Made by a program: the position numbers and the translations under genes
Source of the DNA: a virus
Length of the DNA: 24,791 nt
Strand: one strand, 5' to 3'
Virus record (IMG/VR): IMGVR_UViG_3300000553_000320
Location: 1-24,791 of that record
Notes under the pieces: generated by a model
What the model saw: only the letters and a program-made list of their open reading frames with translations
What the model was told of the DNA's origin: nothing
Database searches by the model: none
Shown: positions 5,462 through 23,598 of the stretch, piece after piece
How the letters are laid out: the number at the start of each line of letters is the position of its first letter
How positions within the stretch are numbered: the first letter of the stretch is position 1

Positions 5462-6689
5462 TTTCAAATTCTTGTAACCAAGGAAAAATTTGTCGCCAAT
5501 CTGTTCCACGGCGACGATCTTTTTCATTTAAGTATGTGAATAATTTACTTATTTCTTTTTGATTTTGAACACTTTTCTTTACAGAATTTGCAATTCCACG
5601 CATACACATTATAGAATTTTTTTCTTCTTCATTATTAGATGGCATTAGAGATATAATATTTTCAAAATCATCCATAAAAAAATCAGGTCCAAAGATGCCA
5701 GGTTTCATATAAATTGGAGTTGGTCCAACTTCTCCAAGATACTGTGCTACTTTACCAATTGATTTCCAATACACAAGTTTTTCAATAAGTTGTGGCATTG
5801 TTTTTATTGTTAGTGAACTTATTGTCTGATGTATTTTTAAAGAAATCCATTTTTGTTTCAATAGATATTCAAAATTACTTTCCCATAAATTTAAATTTAA
5901 TCCATATCTAACATATTCTTGTTCTTTACCCCAACAATCAATACTACATATAACTCCAAGTGATTTAATTTTTCTCTTTTTAATTAGATTTTTTGTTTTT
6001 TCAACAAATTCTTTTAACTTTTCATTCGGTATGTTTAAATTTGTAGTAATTGAGATACTAAGATTTATGTTTGGTTTTTTTTCAAAAAAATCTAATAGAA
6101 TATCTAATTCTTTTTGAAGTAATGGCTCACCACCTAAAATATGTAATTCACTTAATACATGAGAATTTTTATTAAGCCATGTCCAAAAATATGGAACTAA
6201 AGTTTTATATTTCTTTTCCCTAGATATTAAATCAATTCCATTACTATTAAAGTTACCAAATTCTTTATTTTCTTTAGCAATGAACGAACTTAAATTTGGT
6301 CCGCAATATAAGCAACCCATGTTACATGTATTGTTAAAATATACTTCAAGAATAGTAGGAGATACGGTTGTTGAATTAATGTTTTCTTTTAATTCTGGTG
6401 GAATTGCATGTGGCAATGTTAAATGTAAATTTCTATCGCTGAACCCACCAGAATTTTCTATATTTTTGCAATAACCACAACTAGAATCAGGCCATTTTCC
6501 ATTTAACATTGCTTCTCTATCAGCAATTTTAATTTCTGTATTATGAAAATTTTCAAAATTTTCTGGAGTTAATGTGCTTTCACTCGTTCTAAAACAAGAA
6601 CGAGTGATACCGCTATTCAAAAAAAGTGTGCTCCAATTCCATTTTAATGCACATGCAGTTGCAGTTTTTATAGGAAAATTGCTTTCCAT
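5439..6689 (-). CDS. radical SAM protein (twitch/SPASM-like family)
   Basis: Protein of 416 aa. The ATG at 6689 shares bases with the nrdA-b stop (TAATG), so translation is probably coupled; an upstream in-frame TTG at 6701 is less likely. The [4Fe-4S]/SAM motif CxxxCxxC is Cys122-Cys126-Cys129 (CNMGCLYC), and the SAM-binding GGEP is at about 186. Extra cysteines near the N-terminus (Cys32, Cys71-x-x-Cys74) and one near the C-terminus (CMRG) could hold a second cluster. Such proteins modify peptides or small molecules by radical chemistry; the substrate here is unknown. The gene is visibly richer in A/T codons (AAA, TTT, ATT) than nrdA and nrdB, and it separates them, which suggests later insertion. 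It is not an obvious NrdG-type activase, because the neighbouring reductase is class Ia. Confidence 0.85.
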   Translation of the reverse strand: MESNFPIKTATACALKWNWSTLFLNSGITRSCFRTSESTLTPENFENFHNTEIKIADREAMLNGKWPDSSCGYCKNIENSGGFSDRNLHLTLPHAIPPELKENINSTTVSPTILEVYFNNTCNMGCLYCGPNLSSFIAKENKEFGNFNSNGIDLISREKKYKTLVPYFWTWLNKNSHVLSELHILGGEPLLQKELDILLDFFEKKPNINLSISITTNLNIPNEKLKEFVEKTKNLIKKRKIKSLGVICSIDCWGKEQEYVRYGLNLNLWESNFEYLLKQKWISLKIHQTISSLTIKTMPQLIEKLVYWKSIGKVAQYLGEVGPTPIYMKPGIFGPDFFMDDFENIISLMPSNNEEEKNSIMCMRGIANSVKKSVQNQKEISKLFTYLNEKDRRRGTDWRQIFPWLQEFEIDINNKI

Positions 6690-7738
6690 TAAATCGTGCA
6701 ACTTTCACAAGCGTCTTGATCTTCAAGAAGTTGTAAGTTTTTGACTTCAAAGTCTTGCTTTTGTTCAACAAACTTGCTGACATCAACTTCACCTTGACCA
6801 TCATATGTATTGAAATAATAAAGAGTCTTAATACCATACTTGTAGCAAAGTAGTAGGTGACCAATCATAACACTCATTGGAATCTTTTCATCCGCATAGA
6901 ATGTTGGATTATAACTTGTGTTAGTAGAGATACTTTGGTCAATATACTTCTGCAGCACAGCAACTAATTTCAAATAACCTTCTGGTGATTTTTGATCCCA
7001 CAGTAGTTCATACTTGTTCTTTAATTTGCGGAACTCTGGCACAACTTGCTTTAATACACCATGCTTGCTCTGCTTGACACTAATAAGACTGCGTGGTGGT
7101 TCAATACCATTTGTAGCATTGGCAACCTGTGCACTAGTTTCTGCTGGCATAAGTGCCATCAGAGTAGAATTACGAATACCATGTTCACGAAGACTTGCAC
7201 GAAGCGATGCCCAATCCATGCGCTCCACATGAGGCACAAGTTCATCAACTTCACGCTTATATGTGTCAATAGGCAGAACACCATAACCATACTTGGTTTC
7301 ATTGCTCTTTGGTGCAGCACCACGCTCAATAGCAAGTTGATTGCTTGCACGAATAAGATAGTAAGACCATGCTTCTGCATACTCGTCAACGAGTGCCAAC
7401 GCACGAGGATCGCTATAACTCATATCATTCTTTGCAAGGAAATATGCGAAGTTAATGATACCAACGCCAAGTGGACGACGGTTCATTGTGCTTAACTGTG
7501 CTGCAATAACAGGATAGTTTTGGTAGTCAAGTAGCGCATCAAGACCACGAACAGCAAGGTCGCACATCTTTTCAAAATCTTTTGGTTCCTTAACATTGCC
7601 CCAATTAATTGCACTAAGTGTGCATAAACTTATTGCAGCACCATCATAATCTTCAACATCTGCATCAAGATACACATACTCATCAGTTTCTATCTCGTTT
7701 TCATCTACTATTTCATATAACCAATCGTTATTTTTCAT
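6689..7738 (-). CDS. nrdA: ribonucleotide reductase alpha subunit, C-terminal piece (NrdA-b)
   Basis: Protein of 349 aa matching the C-terminal part of E. coli NrdA from just before Cys462. Cys39 in SLCTLSAINWG corresponds to redox Cys462, Tyr307-Tyr308 (TLYYFNT) to the radical-transfer pair Tyr730/731, and Cys344/Cys347 (ACESCTI) to the C-terminal shuttle cysteines, here CxxC instead of CxxxxC. The first 36 residues are acidic and hydrophilic (WLYEIVDENEIETDEYVYLD) with no counterpart in E. coli NrdA. The ATG at 7738 has AAGGA 8 nt upstream, inside the last codons of the endonuclease gene, so it has its own ribosome site. It must pair with NrdA-a to form a working alpha subunit. All visible catalytic residues are kept, so it is a gene in pieces and not a pseudogene. 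Confidence 0.93.
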   Translation of the reverse strand: MKNNDWLYEIVDENEIETDEYVYLDADVEDYDGAAISLCTLSAINWGNVKEPKDFEKMCDLAVRGLDALLDYQNYPVIAAQLSTMNRRPLGVGIINFAYFLAKNDMSYSDPRALALVDEYAEAWSYYLIRASNQLAIERGAAPKSNETKYGYGVLPIDTYKREVDELVPHVERMDWASLRASLREHGIRNSTLMALMPAETSAQVANATNGIEPPRSLISVKQSKHGVLKQVVPEFRKLKNKYELLWDQKSPEGYLKLVAVLQKYIDQSISTNTSYNPTFYADEKIPMSVMIGHLLLCYKYGIKTLYYFNTYDGQGEVDVSKFVEQKQDFEVKNLQLLEDQDACESCTI

Positions 7739-8486
7739 TTTGTTTCCTTAATTTGTTCAATTTATAGATAGATAATCCAGTGTATTCGGATGCTTCTCTC
7801 ATTGACCCGTAATATATTCCATCAACGGTAATAGATTTAGCATATCCATTTTTTTCACCATAGTTTGCCTTGGCAGAATGTCCTTTACTTTTCCACTCAG
7901 TATATTCGTAATCAATATTGCGAGTGTTTGTTAATTTCTTACACCAATAATTTTTATGAATCTGTCTTTTCCCTCTAGCAACCGCACTCATTGTAGAAGG
8001 GTTTAAATTATTTTCTTTACAGAACTCTAACATATTTTCAATTTCAAAGATATTTCCATTTGGGTCTTTGACCAACCATTTATCAATTTTTAATTTGTGT
8101 CTATTATTCTTCCATAAAGATTTTCCTTTATGTGGCGATGGTTTGCCTTTTCTTGCCGCCGATATTCTTTCATAGTATATTTTAGCAAGTTCTGGATTAT
8201 CGTGATGACTCCAACCCATGCCAGAATAATTATTTAAATTATAATATTCAGAAGAGTTGGCTGCATCAATATCGCAAAGAAGCAGTTGTTCTTTTTCCAA
8301 TGCCTCTTTTCGTGACAATTCAATAGTCAATATTTTTCTTTCAAAGTTTTCTGGATTGTTGTTATATATTTCATTAAAGTAATTGCTTGAACTAACATAC
8401 CCGTCAGTCAATTCACCATAGTGCGAACCAATGTATTTCTTGTTATCACTTTTAGAAATCCACATATATATAAATCCATATTTCAT
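7728..8486 (-). CDS. GIY-YIG homing endonuclease splitting nrdA
   Basis: Protein of 252 aa. The GIY-YIG core is at residues 4-20 (GFIY, KKYIG), the Tyr/Asn-rich second element at 30-41, and the likely metal-ligand Glu66 is in LEKEQLLL. After residue 90 come DNA-binding modules: an RISAARKGKPSPHKGKS motif (NUMOD3-like), an IENMLEFCKENNL module, and a C-terminal NUMOD1-like helix motif (GSMREASEYTGLS). It lies between the two halves of nrdA and overlaps the downstream half by 11 nt. There is no spare sequence for a group I intron around it. GIY-YIG enzymes of this kind cut an uninterrupted allele and spread by repair; the likely target is intact nrdA (inference). Its start has GGGAG in a hairpin loop. 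Confidence 0.92.
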   Translation of the reverse strand: MKYGFIYMWISKSDNKKYIGSHYGELTDGYVSSSNYFNEIYNNNPENFERKILTIELSRKEALEKEQLLLCDIDAANSSEYYNLNNYSGMGWSHHDNPELAKIYYERISAARKGKPSPHKGKSLWKNNRHKLKIDKWLVKDPNGNIFEIENMLEFCKENNLNPSTMSAVARGKRQIHKNYWCKKLTNTRNIDYEYTEWKSKGHSAKANYGEKNGYAKSITVDGIYYGSMREASEYTGLSIYKLNKLRKQNEK

Positions 8487-8513
8487 AATATATCTCCCGA
8501 TATATTATTTATC
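8485..8513 (-). promoter_or_regulatory. ribosome-site hairpin with embedded late-promoter box (endonuclease switch)
   Basis: A perfect 10-bp inverted repeat (8485-8494 with 8499-8508; core TAATATATC/GATATATTA) has loop GGGA, part of the endonuclease's Shine-Dalgarno sequence. The stem covers the nrdA-a stop and part of the endonuclease ATG. GATAAATA (8513-8506), 7/8 to the T4 late consensus TATAAATA, would start RNA near 8500, removing the 5' arm and freeing the ribosome site. Read-through nrd RNA would keep the hairpin. Confidence 0.6.
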
Positions 8514-9998
8514 ACTCTTTGCACTTTTACTGCCATTAAATCTTTCTTTATTAAGATATAATAGGTTTTTGGATTCTTTTTTATATTTCAAGAACTCTTG
8601 ATATTTTTCTTTTGGAACACGAATTTTTTTTCTGGAAGCACCATCAAAGATATGATTCAATGGCTTTGTAGGCAGCGCAATTTCAGCGCACAGATTGCTT
8701 TGCTTGATTACAGCCTTGCTTTCAATAAACGCACCATGAGTATTAGCATGATCAACATTCATAAGATAGATGCGACCTGTGTTCTTGCGCTCTTCCATGA
8801 ACTGTGAAAATAGGTCAATAGCTTTGTAGGTCTTCTTACGAATCTTTGGATTCTTTTCTGCTTTTTCATACAGTTCTTTGAACTTGTCTTGATCAGCAAA
8901 GAACGCATCATACAAACCTGGCACATCACTTGGCGAGAAGCAAGTAATATCACCGCCTTGAAGAAGACGCTCATACATAAGTTTGTTAAACTGAACGCCA
9001 TAATCCATCTGGCGAATACGATTATCTTCTGTTCCCTTATTGTTTTTGAGAACCAGCAAATCTTCTACTTCATAATGCCATAGTGGGTAATAAAGAGTTG
9101 CAGCACCATTGCGAACACCGCCTTGTGAGCAACTACGAACTGCTGCTTGGAACATCTTATAGAATGGAATTAAGCCTGTGTGAGAAGCATCGCCACGACG
9201 AATAGGCGAACCGATAGCACGAATAGAACCCGCCCCAATGCCAATGCCAGCCTTTTGTGAGACATACTTAACAATGGCACTGCTTGTTGCATTAATGCTG
9301 TCTAAACTATCGCCAGTTTCAATCAACACACAAGATGAGAACTGGCGCTGCGGAGTGCGAAGACCAGCCATGATAGGAGTTGGAAGAGAAATGTCATGCT
9401 TTGAGATAGCATCATAATAATCACGAACATACTTCAAGCGAGTATCCTGTGGATACTTGGCAAATAGGGTTGCAGCAATAAGCGCATAGGCAACCTGTGG
9501 CGTTTCCATAATTTGTCCAGTTACACGGTTCTGAACCAAATACTTTCCGCGAAGTTGTTCCATAGCAACATAAGAAAGTGTACAATCACGCTCGTGATCT
9601 ATAAATTTATTAATGGTTGCCCATTCTTCTTCAGTATAATCTGTTAGTAAATTAGCATCATAGAAACCACTTTCTACATTCTTCTTTATAATATCAATCA
9701 ATGGTAGAGGAAAATAATTGTTATATACTTCTTTACGAAGGTGATAATTTACAAGACGACCTGCAACATACTGATAATTAGGTGCTTCTTCACTAATAAG
9801 ATCAGCAGCAGCCTTGATCATTGTTTCTTGAATTTCAGAAGTCTTAATATTATTGTAAAATTGTATTTGACTTCGTAGTTCTAATTCACTGGCACTTACG
9901 CCATTGATGTTTTCGGTTGCCCAAAATACTACTTTATGTAATTTTTCAATATTTAATGGTTCTTTGCGACCATCACGCTTTGTAACATTGATTGCCAT
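8505..9998 (-). CDS. nrdA: ribonucleotide reductase alpha subunit, N-terminal piece (NrdA-a)
   Basis: Protein of 497 aa. The ATG at 9998 follows AAAGAGAA; an in-frame TTG at 10013 is unlikely. An ATP-cone allosteric domain spans residues 1-90, followed by the alpha/beta barrel. Cys223 (FSSCVLIE) corresponds to E. coli Cys225, and Asn435, Cys437 and Glu439 (SNLCAEIALPTKPL) to the catalytic Asn437/Cys439/Glu441. Similarity to NrdA stops at NHI (about 450). The last 47 residues are basic and charged (KKIRVPKEKYQEFL, then KSAKSDK) and are absent from E. coli NrdA. The rest of the enzyme is encoded 770 bases further on, behind a GIY-YIG gene. This is the arrangement described for nrdA of Aeromonas phage Aeh1, where a different homing endonuclease splits the gene and the two chains still form an active enzyme. 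Confidence 0.94.
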   Translation of the reverse strand: MAINVTKRDGRKEPLNIEKLHKVVFWATENINGVSASELELRSQIQFYNNIKTSEIQETMIKAAADLISEEAPNYQYVAGRLVNYHLRKEVYNNYFPLPLIDIIKKNVESGFYDANLLTDYTEEEWATINKFIDHERDCTLSYVAMEQLRGKYLVQNRVTGQIMETPQVAYALIAATLFAKYPQDTRLKYVRDYYDAISKHDISLPTPIMAGLRTPQRQFSSCVLIETGDSLDSINATSSAIVKYVSQKAGIGIGAGSIRAIGSPIRRGDASHTGLIPFYKMFQAAVRSCSQGGVRNGAATLYYPLWHYEVEDLLVLKNNKGTEDNRIRQMDYGVQFNKLMYERLLQGGDITCFSPSDVPGLYDAFFADQDKFKELYEKAEKNPKIRKKTYKAIDLFSQFMEERKNTGRIYLMNVDHANTHGAFIESKAVIKQSNLCAEIALPTKPLNHIFDGASRKKIRVPKEKYQEFLKYKKESKNLLYLNKERFNGSKSAKSDK

Positions 9999-10009
9999 TC
10001 TATTCTCTT

Positions 10010-10489
10010 TCAAACTGGTAAATTTTTGTAATTAGCACGATTAATCAATTCTGCTGATGGACTGATCGTGAGGTTATTTACAACCTCGCCCAAGCTGTAA
10101 TTAAGCGTATATAATCCGCCTTCGCATCTGACTAAATTAAGGTATTCATGTTTTTCTCTATCTCTATAAACTTCAATAGCCATTGTATCACGAAACGGAT
10201 AAGAAGTATAATATAAAGTGTAGTACATACCCAATGCACGGGCTAAATCGCAGTAATTACCTTCACTAATAAGTGTCCAAGGATCGGGCCAGTTACGACA
10301 ATCATCGTATTCAAGATAATTTGTAATGATTGGGCATTTAACCCAATCACGCGCTACAGTTTGCAAATGATTGTTTGCAATACTGCGACGATATGTTCGC
10401 CATTCTAAAATTTTATTATCAGATTTACCAGAGAACCAATTATAACATTTCAAGGTATCTAATTGCATAGTTGATGAGGCCAGTTCCAT
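10010..10489 (-). CDS. conserved phage protein of unknown function next to tail fibre
   Basis: Protein of 159 aa (152 from the inner ATG at 10468). Both starts lie inside the end of the tail fibre gene and neither has a clear ribosome site, so the true start is uncertain. The central motif CPIITNYLEYDDC, then NWPDPWTLISEGNYCDLARALG, resembles a protein family common in T4-like aquatic phages, which I know only as hypothetical. It has several Cys and aromatic residues and lacks signal peptide or membrane segments. Overlap with the fibre gene suggests a fibre-linked role such as an assembly factor, which is inference only. Confidence 0.65.
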   Translation of the reverse strand: MELASSTMQLDTLKCYNWFSGKSDNKILEWRTYRRSIANNHLQTVARDWVKCPIITNYLEYDDCRNWPDPWTLISEGNYCDLARALGMYYTLYYTSYPFRDTMAIEVYRDREKHEYLNLVRCEGGLYTLNYSLGEVVNNLTISPSAELINRANYKNLPV

Positions 10490-14168: not shown

Positions 14169-14864
14169 TTATTCAGAGTAAAATTTTGTAACTCTGTCCC
14201 ACCATACTTGAGTCCAGTGTTCAAAATCATCGCCTTTGATAATCCATCGCTGTGGCTCACAATCTTTGCTGCACATAAGGATAACAATCTGTGATATATC
14301 TGTGCCAAACAACTCGTTGTGTGCAGCAGCATACGCAGCGCCTTGAATGAAATAGTCATGAATCCATTCAGTTTTCTTGGGTTTATTGGTTTGTTTGTAA
14401 TCTACGATAGATGGTTTACCATTATAAACGCCAACAAGATCAGTAGTGCCAGCATAAAGTTGCGGGTAATATAGCGCAGTTTCCATGCCCCAATATTCTT
14501 GCATCTGACCTTTCATATAATTCTCGATAATAGTAGTTGCCATCTTAGCAGCATCGGCATGAACTAAATTACTGCCTGTTTTTAATTCTCCAGTTTCAAG
14601 CCAATTTTCTAACTGCTTGTGCATTGAAGTGCCGCGACCAGCAGCTTCTGTTGTAATAGCTTGTGCTTTTACAACACCTACACGCTTTTTCCACTCGTAT
14701 AATGATTTCTTTTTTTCTTCACTCTTTGTTTTATCAAGGATCGTAGTTACACTAGCAACAACATCGCCTTCTGGCGTTTGATATCTACGACCTTCAACAG
14801 TTTCTTTTCGTGTGATTTGTTTATAATCATACAGCGGATTGTGCGTTACATATGGATTTGTCAT
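14169..14864 (-). CDS. PD-(D/E)XK nuclease of the Cas4/RecB-like exonuclease type
   Basis: Protein of 231 aa. The core motifs are in the expected order: His82 (GRGTSMHKQLE), Glu129, Asp142 (AGTTDLVG), Asp155-x-Lys157 (SIVDYKQ) and a QxxxY helix at Gln174 (FIQGAAYAA). These residues bind metal and DNA in RecB/Cas4-type nucleases, which act in recombination and DNA processing. There is no visible four-Cys cluster of the Cas4 Fe-S type, so a plain RecB-like exonuclease is more likely. It has no Shine-Dalgarno sequence; instead a TTGACA/TATATT promoter ends 6 nt before the ATG, predicting a leaderless message. It follows virion-type genes but probably belongs to the early DNA metabolism class. 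Confidence 0.85.
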   Translation of the reverse strand: MTNPYVTHNPLYDYKQITRKETVEGRRYQTPEGDVVASVTTILDKTKSEEKKKSLYEWKKRVGVVKAQAITTEAAGRGTSMHKQLENWLETGELKTGSNLVHADAAKMATTIIENYMKGQMQEYWGMETALYYPQLYAGTTDLVGVYNGKPSIVDYKQTNKPKKTEWIHDYFIQGAAYAAAHNELFGTDISQIVILMCSKDCEPQRWIIKGDDFEHWTQVWWDRVTKFYSE

Positions 14865-14870
14865 ATTATT

Positions 14871-14898
14871 AATATATCACAAAATTGCCAGATGTCAA
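14871..14898 (-). promoter_or_regulatory. sigma70-type promoter giving a leaderless nuclease mRNA
   Basis: TTGACA (14898-14893), 16-nt spacer, TATATT (14876-14871), then exactly 6 nt to the ATG at 14864. The predicted start is the A of the ATG. No ribosome site is present. Confidence 0.6.
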
Positions 14899-15260: not shown

Positions 15261-16064
15261 TTATTTATTGGATTTTTTATTCTTTTTAACCTTGAATGTT
15301 TTACCACCAACAGTAAATTCGCTGTGTCCTGCTTCACGAGCAGCAGCAAGAGCACCAGTAAATTGGTTACCTTCGCTTATACTTAATTCAACATCGGTTG
15401 CTTGAGAGCCAGCTTTATATAGTTTTTCTATATCGCCAACATTGCGTAGCAATTTAAATGCAAGGTTATCAACACCAAATTCACCATCTTTTTCAAGACC
15501 ACTTTGGCGCATCGTTTTAATTTTTTTCTTTAATCTATTAATTGTTTCGCTATCGCCGCTGTCTATTGCTTGGTCAATTTCATTATGAAGATATTCATAC
15601 TTGTCTTCAATATTAGAAGTGTCAGGCGTTGCTGTAATTTTCTTTGGAAATTTTACCCAATTATCATCATATACGCTATATATGCCATTGGAGATATGCT
15701 TCTCGTCACTGTTTTGTACATATACTTCGACGGAATGACCAAATATAGATATATCATGCTGGTCATTAAACGCACTTTTCTTAGCAAGAAACATTTCTTT
15801 AAGGTCTACTTCGCATGGACCATTAATATCTGCAATTAAATGCAAATCTATGTCGCTCATTGAAGTGTAATTGAATGAAGCATTGCTGCCGCTAACAGTA
15901 ATATCAGTTAATTTAATATCTGCAATGTTAATAAAAGCTAAGAACTCTTTAGCAATTTTAAAAAGAGCAAGACGAACTTGCGGCTTCAAGCGATTATTAT
16001 CCCACAGTTGTGGATTAAGTTTATCATGAAAATGTGTAAGCTGGTCTATATCATCAACGCGCAT
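15261..16064 (-). CDS. nucleotidyltransferase-fold protein
   Basis: Protein of 267 aa. Gly59-Ser60 (TVSGSNASF) followed by Asp71-x-Asp73 (MSDIDLHLI) is the signature of the polymerase-beta-type nucleotidyltransferase fold. Glu113 in HSVEVYVQN is a possible third carboxylate. Such enzymes add nucleotides to RNA, protein or small molecules; the target here is unknown. A Lys-rich helix (INRLKKKIKTMRQ) follows, and the end carries GALAAAREAGHSEFTVGGKTFKVKK, a short Ala/Gly helix plus strand found at the ends of several phage proteins. The ATG at 16064 has no ribosome site and begins 11 nt after the preceding stop. All three acidic positions are present, so it may be active. Confidence 0.7.
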   Translation of the reverse strand: MRVDDIDQLTHFHDKLNPQLWDNNRLKPQVRLALFKIAKEFLAFINIADIKLTDITVSGSNASFNYTSMSDIDLHLIADINGPCEVDLKEMFLAKKSAFNDQHDISIFGHSVEVYVQNSDEKHISNGIYSVYDDNWVKFPKKITATPDTSNIEDKYEYLHNEIDQAIDSGDSETINRLKKKIKTMRQSGLEKDGEFGVDNLAFKLLRNVGDIEKLYKAGSQATDVELSISEGNQFTGALAAAREAGHSEFTVGGKTFKVKKNKKSNK

Positions 16065-16074
16065 TAAGTATTTA

Positions 16075-16416
16075 TTAGAACTTAGCTGCGTTACTTGCCA
16101 TCTGATCTACGGTTTTTTCTTCCGCATTATTATCATCTAGCGACTCATCGTCGGCAGGAGATTTTTTACCTAGCGTAATGCTATCTTGATTTGCATCGCC
16201 AATCATATCTTTTAAGCCAGTGTTTTCTTCATCTGCCATCATATCTTGTAAAATATCAAAGTTAAATTGATATCCAGCATTGTTCATTAGACGAGCAATA
16301 TTTGCCATCGGAATTTTTTCGCCTGGCTTTGTTTTACTTTCCAGATATTGTAAAATTGTCATGAGAAATGCTTCCTCACCTTTTACAAAATCTGGAGCAA
16401 CTTCAAAAAGTTTCAT
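16075..16416 (-). CDS. small acidic protein of unknown function
   Basis: Protein of 113 aa. I prefer ATG 16416, which follows the stop of the 312-aa gene by one base (TAATATG) and has AGAG upstream. The frame stays open further upstream to 16500, but that extension lies entirely inside the previous gene. The N-terminal half is helical (MKLFEVAPDFVKGEEAFLMTIL, IPMANIARLMNNAG), and the C-terminal half is acidic (PADDESLDDNNAEE). I recall similar small proteins in T4-like aquatic phages, all without known function. Probably co-expressed with the 312-aa protein. Confidence 0.6.
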   Translation of the reverse strand: MKLFEVAPDFVKGEEAFLMTILQYLESKTKPGEKIPMANIARLMNNAGYQFNFDILQDMMADEENTGLKDMIGDANQDSITLGKKSPADDESLDDNNAEEKTVDQMASNAAKF

Positions 16417-17379: not shown

Positions 17380-17387
17380 TATTTATT
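17380..17387 (-). promoter_or_regulatory. possible T4-like late promoter box
   Basis: AATAAATA, 7/8 to TATAAATA, overlaps the stop of the 145-aa gene and lies 23 nt before the ATG at 17356, leaving room for a leader with AAGGA. Confidence 0.35.
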
Positions 17388-17820
17388 GCAGTGAGACAGT
17401 TTTCTCTAATTCGTGTAACTGTTGATCTAACAATTCTAATTCAGTTTCAACATTAACAAGCCTATCTGCATATATTTGGTTATCTGGATTAGCTTTATAT
17501 CTTATAGAATACATTTGCTTATCGCCAAGATAAATGTCTAACTGTTTATCAATTACTGTCGCTCGTTGAATATCACGATAATATCGCTTACTTGCCAATG
17601 CCGCAAGCAATATAGCTACTCGTCGTTGACGCAATTTGGCAATAATTGATTTGCCTTTTGTTACTTGCCACAAGTTATCTACAAGTTTTACATTGATACC
17701 ATTGACAAGGTATCCGTTCCCCACGGATTTTACAATCACTGCTCCTTTTTGGGATAGGTGACTGTATTCTTCCGTGACGAATTGTTTGATTTTGTTAAGA
17801 GTTGCGGTTTCATCTATCAT
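17383..17820 (-). CDS. protein of unknown function, promoter-proximal
   Basis: Protein of 145 aa. It has a basic middle (AKLRQRRVAILLAALASKRYYRD) and a C-terminal Leu/Glu helix likely to coil (VETELELLDQQLHELEKTV). No membrane segment and no recognised domain. No Shine-Dalgarno precedes the ATG at 17820; a TTGACA/TATTAT promoter ends 6 nt upstream, so the message is probably leaderless and early. Confidence 0.6.
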   Translation of the reverse strand: MIDETATLNKIKQFVTEEYSHLSQKGAVIVKSVGNGYLVNGINVKLVDNLWQVTKGKSIIAKLRQRRVAILLAALASKRYYRDIQRATVIDKQLDIYLGDKQMYSIRYKANPDNQIYADRLVNVETELELLDQQLHELEKTVSLQ

Positions 17821-17826
17821 AATATT

Positions 17827-17856
17827 ATAATAGCATAACGCTGTCTCTTATGTCAA
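17827..17856 (-). promoter_or_regulatory. sigma70-type promoter giving a leaderless mRNA
   Basis: TTGACA (17856-17851), 18-nt spacer, TATTAT (17832-17827), then 6 nt to the ATG at 17820. A TATAAT in another register lies 3 nt from the ATG with a 21-nt spacer and is less likely. Confidence 0.55.
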
Positions 17857-18168: not shown

Positions 18169-18534
18169 TTATAATAATAAAAACACTATATTTTGATTAT
18201 CGCCATTTGTAACAGTATAATGATCAAGGTTTTTGGCAGTTTCTTCTAATCCAGTAATCATTGGTATAAGGTCAATATTGCTTTCTAACTCAGTTATATC
18301 ACCATCAAAATTATCTATATTGAAATCAAACATCCATATTTCTTCATGGCCACTATATTTTTTACCAAACCCTAAACCATCTGTATTACGAAAAAATTTT
18401 CTAGGATAAGATTGAATAGTAGGAATAGATTTTATATTAATTGCTTGCATAAGAGTGTGCCAATTTTTAAGTTGGTCTGCGGCATGATAGTCACCATTTC
18501 TGGTAATATCAAATAGTGTCATACATCTAATCAT
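18169..18534 (-). CDS. protein of unknown function after terminator
   Basis: Protein of 121 aa from ATG 18534 (or 117 from the ATG at 18522). Neither start has a ribosome site. It begins MTLFDITRNGDYHAADQLKNWH after the first four residues, has an aromatic/Gly middle (FGKKYSGHEEIWMFDF) and an acidic C-terminal half. No membrane segment or known motif. It lies just behind a strong terminator and so needs its own promoter; TATAAG 7 nt upstream of the ATG is the candidate. Confidence 0.6.
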   Translation of the reverse strand: MIRCMTLFDITRNGDYHAADQLKNWHTLMQAINIKSIPTIQSYPRKFFRNTDGLGFGKKYSGHEEIWMFDFNIDNFDGDITELESNIDLIPMITGLEETAKNLDHYTVTNGDNQNIVFLLL

Positions 18535-18541
18535 GTTTTTA

Positions 18542-18547
18542 CTTATA
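18542..18547 (-). promoter_or_regulatory. possible -10 box for the 121-aa gene
   Basis: TATAAG (5/6 to consensus) ends 7 nt before the ATG and directly follows a terminator. No good -35 is seen at 16-18 nt. Confidence 0.3.
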
Positions 18548-18560
18548 GTAGAGTAATTTA

Positions 18561-18590
18561 GACAAAGAAAAAGGGCGGTTACCCGCCCTT
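18561..18590 (-). terminator. intrinsic terminator after the 126-aa gene
   Basis: On the minus strand AAGGGCGG, loop GTAA (a GNRA-type tetraloop), CCGCCCTT form a perfect 8-bp GC-rich stem (18571-18590), followed by TTTCTTTGTC. It is the only strong rho-independent terminator I see in this AT-rich window, 27 nt after the stop of the 126-aa gene. Confidence 0.9.
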
Positions 18591-18598
18591 GAACTTGT

Positions 18599-18621
18599 TT
18601 AATATATCTGTGATATATTAA
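18599..18621 (-). other. AU hairpin over the stop codon of the 126-aa gene
   Basis: A perfect 10-bp stem with loop ACA (minus strand) shares the nine-base arms TAATATATC/GATATATTA with the hairpin at 8485-8508, and again overlaps a stop codon. It may protect or process the 3' end of an abundant mRNA; this is unproven. Confidence 0.55.
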
Positions 18622-22141: not shown

Positions 22142-22159
22142 AACATATTTATGTTGTCA

Positions 22160-23563
22160 TTATTTTGAAGATTTAATATTAGCTAACATACTTTTTAATC
22201 TGCTGCTATCGACTGTTGCCGTGACTTTACTAGATTCAGTATCAATGTTGCCAGCCGCTCTTACGACACTGCCAGTTTTAAGACCGTCGAAGATAGTATT
22301 TGATGGTTTCTTGAACTGAGATGTTTGGCTATCATCATCTGGAAGATCGCGAATACGCAAACTATCAATATCAAATTCAAGTTCAACCTTTTGTCCAACG
22401 CCACTGCTGCTACGAGTTTTCATAATTTGAAGTTGATATTTGCCGTGCTCACGCATACTGCGTGTTGTAAAAATGCCGAATAGATTGTCTGCAGTATTGA
22501 TTTTTGAAATACCGCCACTAATATGACTGTGGTCAAACTCTACTTCTTCAACACTTGCACGATTTAACTGCGATGCTGTAACCAATAAGATTTGCATTTC
22601 TTTGGCAAAATTACGAATTTCCTCACTTACATACTTGTCCTTGACAAACAAATCACTTGGGCTAACCTTTGCACTAACAGGCATTAGCAAATCAAGATAA
22701 TCAATCATAACAAAATCTACACGACGACCGCTGCGGATTTGCAGTTCTTTAATATAAGCACGAACATCGTTGATATTGCTTTGCGCTGGCAAATATTTGA
22801 TTTGTAACTTACCACTCTTTTTACCCATCATGATAACCTTCATATCTACATTGTCAATATCTCTGAAGATATCTTTACTTGGAATATTAGTAATCATACT
22901 ATCAATACGCATAGAGGTTAGTTCTTCACTCAATTCTAGCGTAATATAAACGCCATTGAGACCAAGTTGCATCCAGTTAACTGCAATGTTTTGCATAAAC
23001 AGTGACTTACCGCTACCGCTACCACCAGCAAATATATTCAACTCGCCCTTATTAAACCCACCAAATAGTTTCTGGTCAAGTGCGTTCCATCCTGTAGAAA
23101 CCTGCCCATTGTTATCTTTAATTCTCATCAAACGGGCTTTAGGATCAGCAAAGTAGTCTGTGCCAAGGTCTTTAGTCAAGCTAATTTGCACTGCATCCTT
23201 AATAAGTTTCTCAACAGGATCAAAATCGCCTTTCTCAAGCAAGTCAGCAGCGGCAAGAATTGCTCGTTCAAGTTCTTTTTGTCTAGTAAATCCCTCGAAC
23301 TCATCTAAAAACCAAGAGGTATGGTCATCTGTCATTCCAGAAATTGGTTGAAATGTATTATTGGTGGCAGCATTAATTTGCTCATGCAACGGCATAATAG
23401 TATGCTTTTCACAGTGTTCCTTAATGAACTCTGCTGCACTTTTTAAACTACGATCAAAGTTATTTGGATTAAAAATATTTTGAACGCGCACATAACTTTG
23501 CGAATCGCTCAGCATCATTTCAATGAATAGCTTTTGGATTTGTGCGTCGTATGTTTTTGCCAT
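22160..23563 (-). CDS. replicative DNA helicase, DnaB family (T4 gp41-like)
   Basis: Protein of 467 aa, a typical length. Residues 1-130 form the helical N-terminal domain that contacts primase, and 150-420 the RecA-like motor. Walker A is GGSGSGKS (180-187), catalytic Glu210 follows in TLELSEE, Walker B is VMIDYL with Asp288, motif H3/Q is TASQLNR (about 328), and the arginine finger region is KTRSSSG. It unwinds DNA at the fork as a hexamer. The gene lies one gene downstream of the primase, as befits a primosome. It has no ribosome site; a promoter ends 6 nt before the ATG at 23563, so it may be expressed early as a leaderless message. Confidence 0.96.
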   Translation of the reverse strand: MAKTYDAQIQKLFIEMMLSDSQSYVRVQNIFNPNNFDRSLKSAAEFIKEHCEKHTIMPLHEQINAATNNTFQPISGMTDDHTSWFLDEFEGFTRQKELERAILAAADLLEKGDFDPVEKLIKDAVQISLTKDLGTDYFADPKARLMRIKDNNGQVSTGWNALDQKLFGGFNKGELNIFAGGSGSGKSLFMQNIAVNWMQLGLNGVYITLELSEELTSMRIDSMITNIPSKDIFRDIDNVDMKVIMMGKKSGKLQIKYLPAQSNINDVRAYIKELQIRSGRRVDFVMIDYLDLLMPVSAKVSPSDLFVKDKYVSEEIRNFAKEMQILLVTASQLNRASVEEVEFDHSHISGGISKINTADNLFGIFTTRSMREHGKYQLQIMKTRSSSGVGQKVELEFDIDSLRIRDLPDDDSQTSQFKKPSNTIFDGLKTGSVVRAAGNIDTESSKVTATVDSSRLKSMLANIKSSK

Positions 23564-23569
23564 ATGTGT

Positions 23570-23598
23570 ATTATATCTTTATTCTTGGTTGTTGTCAC
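23570..23598 (-). promoter_or_regulatory. sigma70-type promoter giving a leaderless helicase mRNA
   Basis: GTGACA (23598-23593), 17-nt spacer, perfect TATAAT (23575-23570), then 6 nt to the ATG. The -35 lies in the end of the upstream gene. Confidence 0.6.

Follow-up and report, generated by a model that had tools for sequence, protein, structure and literature searches.

A probable leaderless start programme on two promoter types in uncultured aquatic T4-like jumbo phages

How is a gene expressed when its promoter ends only 6 nt before the ATG and no Shine-Dalgarno (SD) sequence precedes the start codon? This question is raised by three genes in a 24.8-kb virus fragment from IMG/VR, which as a whole is called the window here. 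No match to the window was found among cultured phages by megablast, and Rfam and tRNA scans of it gave no matches. By their helicases, the jumbo phages PA5oct, Atu_ph07, Phosso and SCTP-2 are the nearest cultured kin (39-52% identity); the window helicase is 52% identical to that of PA5oct and 47-48% identical to those of Phosso and Atu_ph07. We retrieved 80 viral contigs with relatives. Of the relatives named below, G007 is a contig of 338 kb, and G003, G005 and G009 are partial contigs. When genome contigs were searched with bS21 and the helicase for host identification, no relatives were found.

Reading the proteins by eye, we also observed that the large subunit of ribonucleotide reductase is apparently split in the window (6689-10013, minus strand) into ORFs 8505-10013 and 6689-7738. 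The ORF between the two halves (7728-8486) resembles a GIY-YIG homing endonuclease, and no intron was found in this region by Rfam.

Three sigma70-type promoters in the window

The three genes and their promoter boxes are the following:

23593..23598, minus strand: helicase -35 box GTGACA, 17 nt from the -10 box
23570..23575, minus strand: helicase -10 box TATAAT, followed by ACACAT (6 nt) and the ATG at 23563
22160..23563, minus strand: DnaB-like replicative helicase (phrog_19, E 2.9e-66; Pfam DnaB_C), predicted leaderless
14893..14898, minus strand: nuclease -35 box TTGACA, 16 nt from the -10 box
14871..14876, minus strand: nuclease -10 box TATATT, followed by AATAAT (6 nt) and the ATG at 14864
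14169..14864, minus strand: exonuclease-family protein (phrog_298, E 6.6e-50), predicted leaderless
17851..17856, minus strand: -35 box TTGACA of the 145-aa gene, 18 nt from the -10 box
17827..17832, minus strand: -10 box TATTAT of the 145-aa gene, followed by AATATT (6 nt) and the ATG at 17820
17383..17820, minus strand: 145-aa protein matching no known family, predicted leaderless

The initial annotation had described these sites as TTGACA or GTGACA, a spacer of 16-18 nt, a TATxxT box and 6 nt to the ATG, and this description is exact at all three genes. The lack of an SD sequence before their ATGs, which it had also claimed, was borne out for each of them. With at most one mismatch in the -35 box, the window holds three such patterns, compared with a mean of 0.26 in dinucleotide shuffles, and three or more were reached in only 1 of 1000 shuffles. 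When offsets were counted from promoter-like boxes in the window, ATGs opening ORFs of at least 50 aa were found three times at offset 6 and almost never at any other offset.

A fourth member had been suggested, namely the 121-aa gene at 18534, with a weaker version of the boxes:

18532..18547, minus strand: start of the 121-aa gene with TATAAG at 7 nt; not accepted as a member

We rejected this gene because a -35 box is absent from all seven distinct upstream sequences and the conserved -10-like hexamer of the orthologs (TACTAT, TACAAT or GATAAT) sits 10 nt from the ATG, directly after a repeat resembling an intrinsic terminator. The proposed class of four genes thus holds for the helicase, the nuclease and the 145-aa gene. 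In the window, the repeat upstream of the 121-aa gene (18548-18600, minus strand) consists of a G+C-rich inverted repeat and a subsequent T run, and it is conserved in orthologs.

Spacing to the ATG in relatives and controls

The offset was quantified without a gene caller. From every TTGACA/TATAAT-like pair (at most two mismatches in all), ATGs opening ORFs of at least 60 aa were counted at each offset. In the window pooled with G003-G006, 18 such ATGs lay at offset 6 and one across all other offsets from 0 to 15; it should be noted that these collections consist of fragments and that sites shared by orthologs in close relatives should not be taken as independent of one another. In G007, 14 ATGs were found at offset 6, compared with a mean of 0.6 per other offset (P 7e-15). 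Further counts at offset 6 were 5 in G009, 10 in G018 and 8 in G016, the last two including the fact that these contigs were picked for carrying at least one site. Leadered genes formed a second hump, near 18-33 nt from sigma70-type promoters. Hence the motif, which the initial annotation had expected at other genes, is indeed enriched in relatives. No peak was seen in the controls: the count at offset 6 was 0 in PA5oct, T4, CBB (half of the genome) and S-PM2 and 1 in Syn9, which rules out these five phages as carriers of the early arrangement.

The same preference was observed in IMG/VR at large. Among the matches listed at each distance from a perfect promoter, 84 of 135 ATGs at 6 nt and 18 of 118 at 10 nt opened ORFs of 60 aa or more (P 1e-14). 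The start codon itself is restricted as well. At 5-7 nt from the -10 box we counted 18 ATG and one GTG or TTG in the pooled set, 17 and one in G007, and, more weakly, nine and two in G009. Such a near-absence of GTG and TTG is what a mechanism recognizing a 5'-terminal AUG needs.

We also compared orthologous upstream sequences. The primase keeps the 6-nt spacing in all 17 distinct ones; it is common to seven genomes at 26-91% protein identity, and the spacers differ freely between distant genomes. Most of the 41 distinct upstream sequences of the helicase retain TTGAC or GTGACA together with TATAAT while the spacer diverges, and in 35 of them the distance between the best-scoring promoter and the ATG is 5-8 nt, with exactly 6 nt in 22. 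The 145-aa gene has 6 nt in all three distinct upstream sequences of close orthologs and also in G003, G005 and G007 (identity down to 47%). For the nuclease, 10 of 24 distinct upstream sequences have 6 nt, three score best at 3 nt, and in the remaining 11 the promoter lies within the upstream neighbouring gene, with a TTG 35 nt further on. In L245, L247 and L251 the nuclease begins several codons further in, and the boxes are shifted with the ATG, still at 6 nt.

Some orthologs have left the arrangement. The helicase genes of L044, L046, L047 and L049 have lost it and carry a leader of about 15 nt with an SD-like AAGGAG instead. The nuclease orthologs with the TTG at 35 nt apparently represent a switch between a leaderless and a leadered start, as judged from their sequences. 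Orthologs that have switched between the two kinds of start offer a natural experiment. In L223, L228, L231, L236, L238, L240, L241, L249, L250 and L253, a promoter of the type TTGACA-N17-TATACT is seen inside the gene preceding the nuclease, and the apparent TTG start, 35 nt past this promoter, overlaps that gene.

Two repeated promoter families were observed in other contigs. A run of small genes at 69-82 kb of G018 (L616, L617) includes several with their own, nearly identical leaderless promoter ending in TATAATACACACATG. At 73-83 kb of G020, a repeated promoter-like family ends in TATAGTGTATG, with the ATG only 2 nt past the -10-like box.

Late boxes and the probable position of the RNA start

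A second set of close boxes was found at late genes. Many structural genes of the window are preceded by ATAAATA boxes, and two genes have the box 4 nt before the ATG:

16069..16075, minus strand: late box ATAAATA of the 267-aa gene, 4 nt from its ATG; predicted leaderless late start
15261..16064, minus strand: 267-aa protein (phrog_36119, unknown function) among structural genes, predicted leaderless late start
22146..22152, minus strand: late box ATAAATA of the 257-aa gene, 4 nt from its ATG (22141); predicted leaderless late start
17380..17386, minus strand: for contrast, ATAAATA 23 nt before the ATG of a 312-aa structural gene, with an SD-like AAGGA in the leader

No SD sequence precedes the 267-aa gene (16064) or the 257-aa gene (22141), the latter encoding a hydroxylase-like protein (Asp_Arg_Hydrox). 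The box of the 267-aa gene, which reads CTAAATA in most orthologs, and its 4-nt spacing are kept in five distinct ortholog upstream sequences; the G009 ortholog has CTATAAATACCAG-ATG.

In relatives, the distance from the late box to the ATG was bimodal. In G007, G009, G018 and G016 it was either 4-5 nt (12, 6, 13 and 8 genes, respectively), with SD-like triplets almost never present, or at least 15 nt, mostly with an SD sequence; offsets 9-13 were empty in these four contigs. Before late genes (terminase, virion proteins), a TATAAATA-like box stands without a -35 box, as in T4-type late promoters. A late sigma factor of the gp55 family is encoded in G007 (E 6.1e-23), and gp55-like sigma factors are also encoded in PA5oct, Atu_ph07, Phosso, SCTP-2 and CBB. 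None was found in the partial contigs G003, G005 and G009.

The two spacings differ by about the amount that the promoters themselves dictate. The sigma70 -10 hexamer occupies positions -12 to -7 and leaves 6 nt before +1, and the T4 late box TATAAATA occupies -13 to -6 and leaves 5 nt. A distance of 6 nt from a sigma70 box and one of 5 nt from a late box would therefore both make the A of the ATG position +1. A review of T4 places the late box upstream of the start by roughly one turn of the helix (PMC2988020). The proposal of the initial annotation that RNA starts at the ATG of the SD-less genes is strongly supported by comparative sequence, that is, by the peak and the conserved spacing.

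We therefore considered exactly where RNA would begin. The choice of the start by RNA polymerase is flexible by 1-3 nt, and the spacing does vary, from 5 to 8 nt among helicase orthologs and between 4 and 5 nt for late boxes, so that very short leaders of 1-4 nt might be made in place of truly leaderless RNAs. Leaders of 1-3 nt would look almost identical to leaderless RNAs. We regard this alternative as unlikely, since the mode at sigma70 boxes is exactly 6 nt and pyrimidines are enriched at -1, the base that precedes the ATG. In G007 a pyrimidine is found there at 22 of 29 close starts versus 36 of 89 SD starts (P 0.001); the bias was also seen in G009 (P 0.013). When pooled, the small contigs fell short of significance (P 0.06), and SCTP-2 showed no such bias. 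A start of RNA at the A(+1) of the ATG thus remains the reading suggested by these data.

We next ask which genes use such starts. In G007, ATGs at offset 6 belong to genes for primase, a clamp loader, dNMP kinase, a UvsW-like helicase, exonuclease, UV endonuclease, a DnaJ-like protein, Clp ATPase and polynucleotide kinase. The sigma70-type leaderless set is dominated by genes for replication, repair and nucleotide metabolism or other metabolism, in line with the initial annotation, according to which leaderlessness is specific to an early class and structural genes are SD-led. This restriction to one class is nevertheless very unlikely. In relatives, close late boxes stand before genes for terminase, virion proteins, an endolysin-like protein and others, and the window adds the genes at 16064 and 22141. 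Being leaderless does not single out the early class, because T4-type late promoters also carry a leaderless set. SD leaders are retained by many genes of both classes, early and late. The supposed clean contrast with structural genes fails at 16064 and 22141. The terms early and late are themselves assigned from gene function and promoter type and denote a presumed timing.

Genome compaction alone could also bring boxes near the ATG through promoter-length gaps, with no leaderless translation involved. Indeed, the gaps before the nuclease (43 nt) and the 145-aa gene (36 nt) are just long enough for a promoter, and the helicase promoter reaches into the end of the gene before it. Compaction, however, should result in a spread of short distances, whereas spikes at 6 and at 4-5 nt were observed with hardly anything up to about 15 nt, and it does not predict the near-exclusive use of ATG; we consider it highly improbable. 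That the RNAs start further upstream at ordinary leadered promoters, the -10-like boxes being fortuitous in AT-rich sequences where TATNNT is common or serving downstream genes, is scarcely credible in view of the sharp peak at a single offset, missing in T4, PA5oct, CBB and S-PM2, the complete -35/-10 pairs, the spacing conserved in orthologs and the starts without SD.

Taken together, these phages, an uncultured clade of T4-like jumbo phages from aquatic habitats, very probably run a leaderless programme on two promoter types beside SD initiation. The three sites of the window would be sigma70-type promoters with the start nucleotide on the A of the ATG. An early or host-type set would follow the pattern TTGACA-N16-18-TAnnnT-N6-ATG, and a late set the pattern ATAAATA-N4-5-ATG, presumably read with the gp55-like sigma factor. 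Each set would stand beside SD-led genes served by the same kinds of promoter. By analogy with known work on bacteria, the leaderless mRNAs would be translated by ribosomes that bind the 5'-terminal AUG.

Missed starts and comparison with known systems

Leaderless starts can be missed by annotation, as suggested by the primase of Salicola phage SCTP-2 (MF360958, gene 154). The start deposited for this gene, at 160281, appears to be too late by 32 codons. It leaves out a conserved CPCC motif, which is regained as part of the conserved N-terminus when the gene is read from the leaderless ATG at 160185. Gene finders that take SD sites into account when choosing a start codon will overlook leaderless starts.

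More speculatively, leaderless starts might be a hard-wired timing device, the phage shifting ribosomes between 5'-AUG and SD modes, perhaps via its own bS21. Ribosomes would then use such an AUG only where it opens its own transcript, and it would stay silent in polycistronic read-through RNA, for example that of the nuclease inside the late structural cluster. We consider this idea unlikely.

To our knowledge, leaderless mRNAs have been described in phages mostly as isolated cases. In lambda, the host RNA polymerase begins the cI mRNA, made from PRM, at its AUG. This case concerns a single lysogeny gene of a temperate phage, whereas a genome-wide class is seen here. With deep conservation at core replication genes and two promoter systems, leaderless starts look like a standing genome-wide strategy in these phages. 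In the open-access literature, we found no report of such starts in this phage group.

In bacteria, 'TA-led' leaderless genes have a -10-like TANNNT about 12 nt before the start codon and no SD sequence (Zheng et al. 2011, PMC3160421), and in S. meliloti all leaderless transcription start sites begin with AUG (PMC3616915). The position of TANNNT, the lack of SD sequences and the AUG starts are shared with these alphaproteobacterial and TA-led cases. These, however, are cellular genes, while those described here belong to phages and have full -35 boxes, and a second leaderless set stands on a phage late promoter.

Large lake phages encoding bS21, for which Bacteroidetes hosts are predicted, were described in a study that discusses bS21 together with SD sequences and leaves promoters unmentioned (PMC9723584). 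The phages studied here resemble them in coming from lakes, in having very large genomes and in carrying bS21. This protein, which is tied to SD-based initiation, is encoded in G003, G007, G009, PA5oct, SCTP-2 and Phosso.

Among the nearest cultured kin, PA5oct has no early peak and just two late sites at 5 nt, and Phosso has three early sites. Of PA5oct, Atu_ph07, Phosso and SCTP-2, only SCTP-2 shows both sets, weakly, with three early sites and seven late sites at 5 nt. The late promoters resemble the gp55-dependent TATAAATA promoters of T4 (PMC2988020) in having ATAAATA without a -35 box, and a gp55-family sigma factor is present in G007. In T4, however, the first 11 nt after a late box never contain an ATG that opens an ORF, whereas each large genome studied here has 8-13 such ATGs at 4-5 nt.
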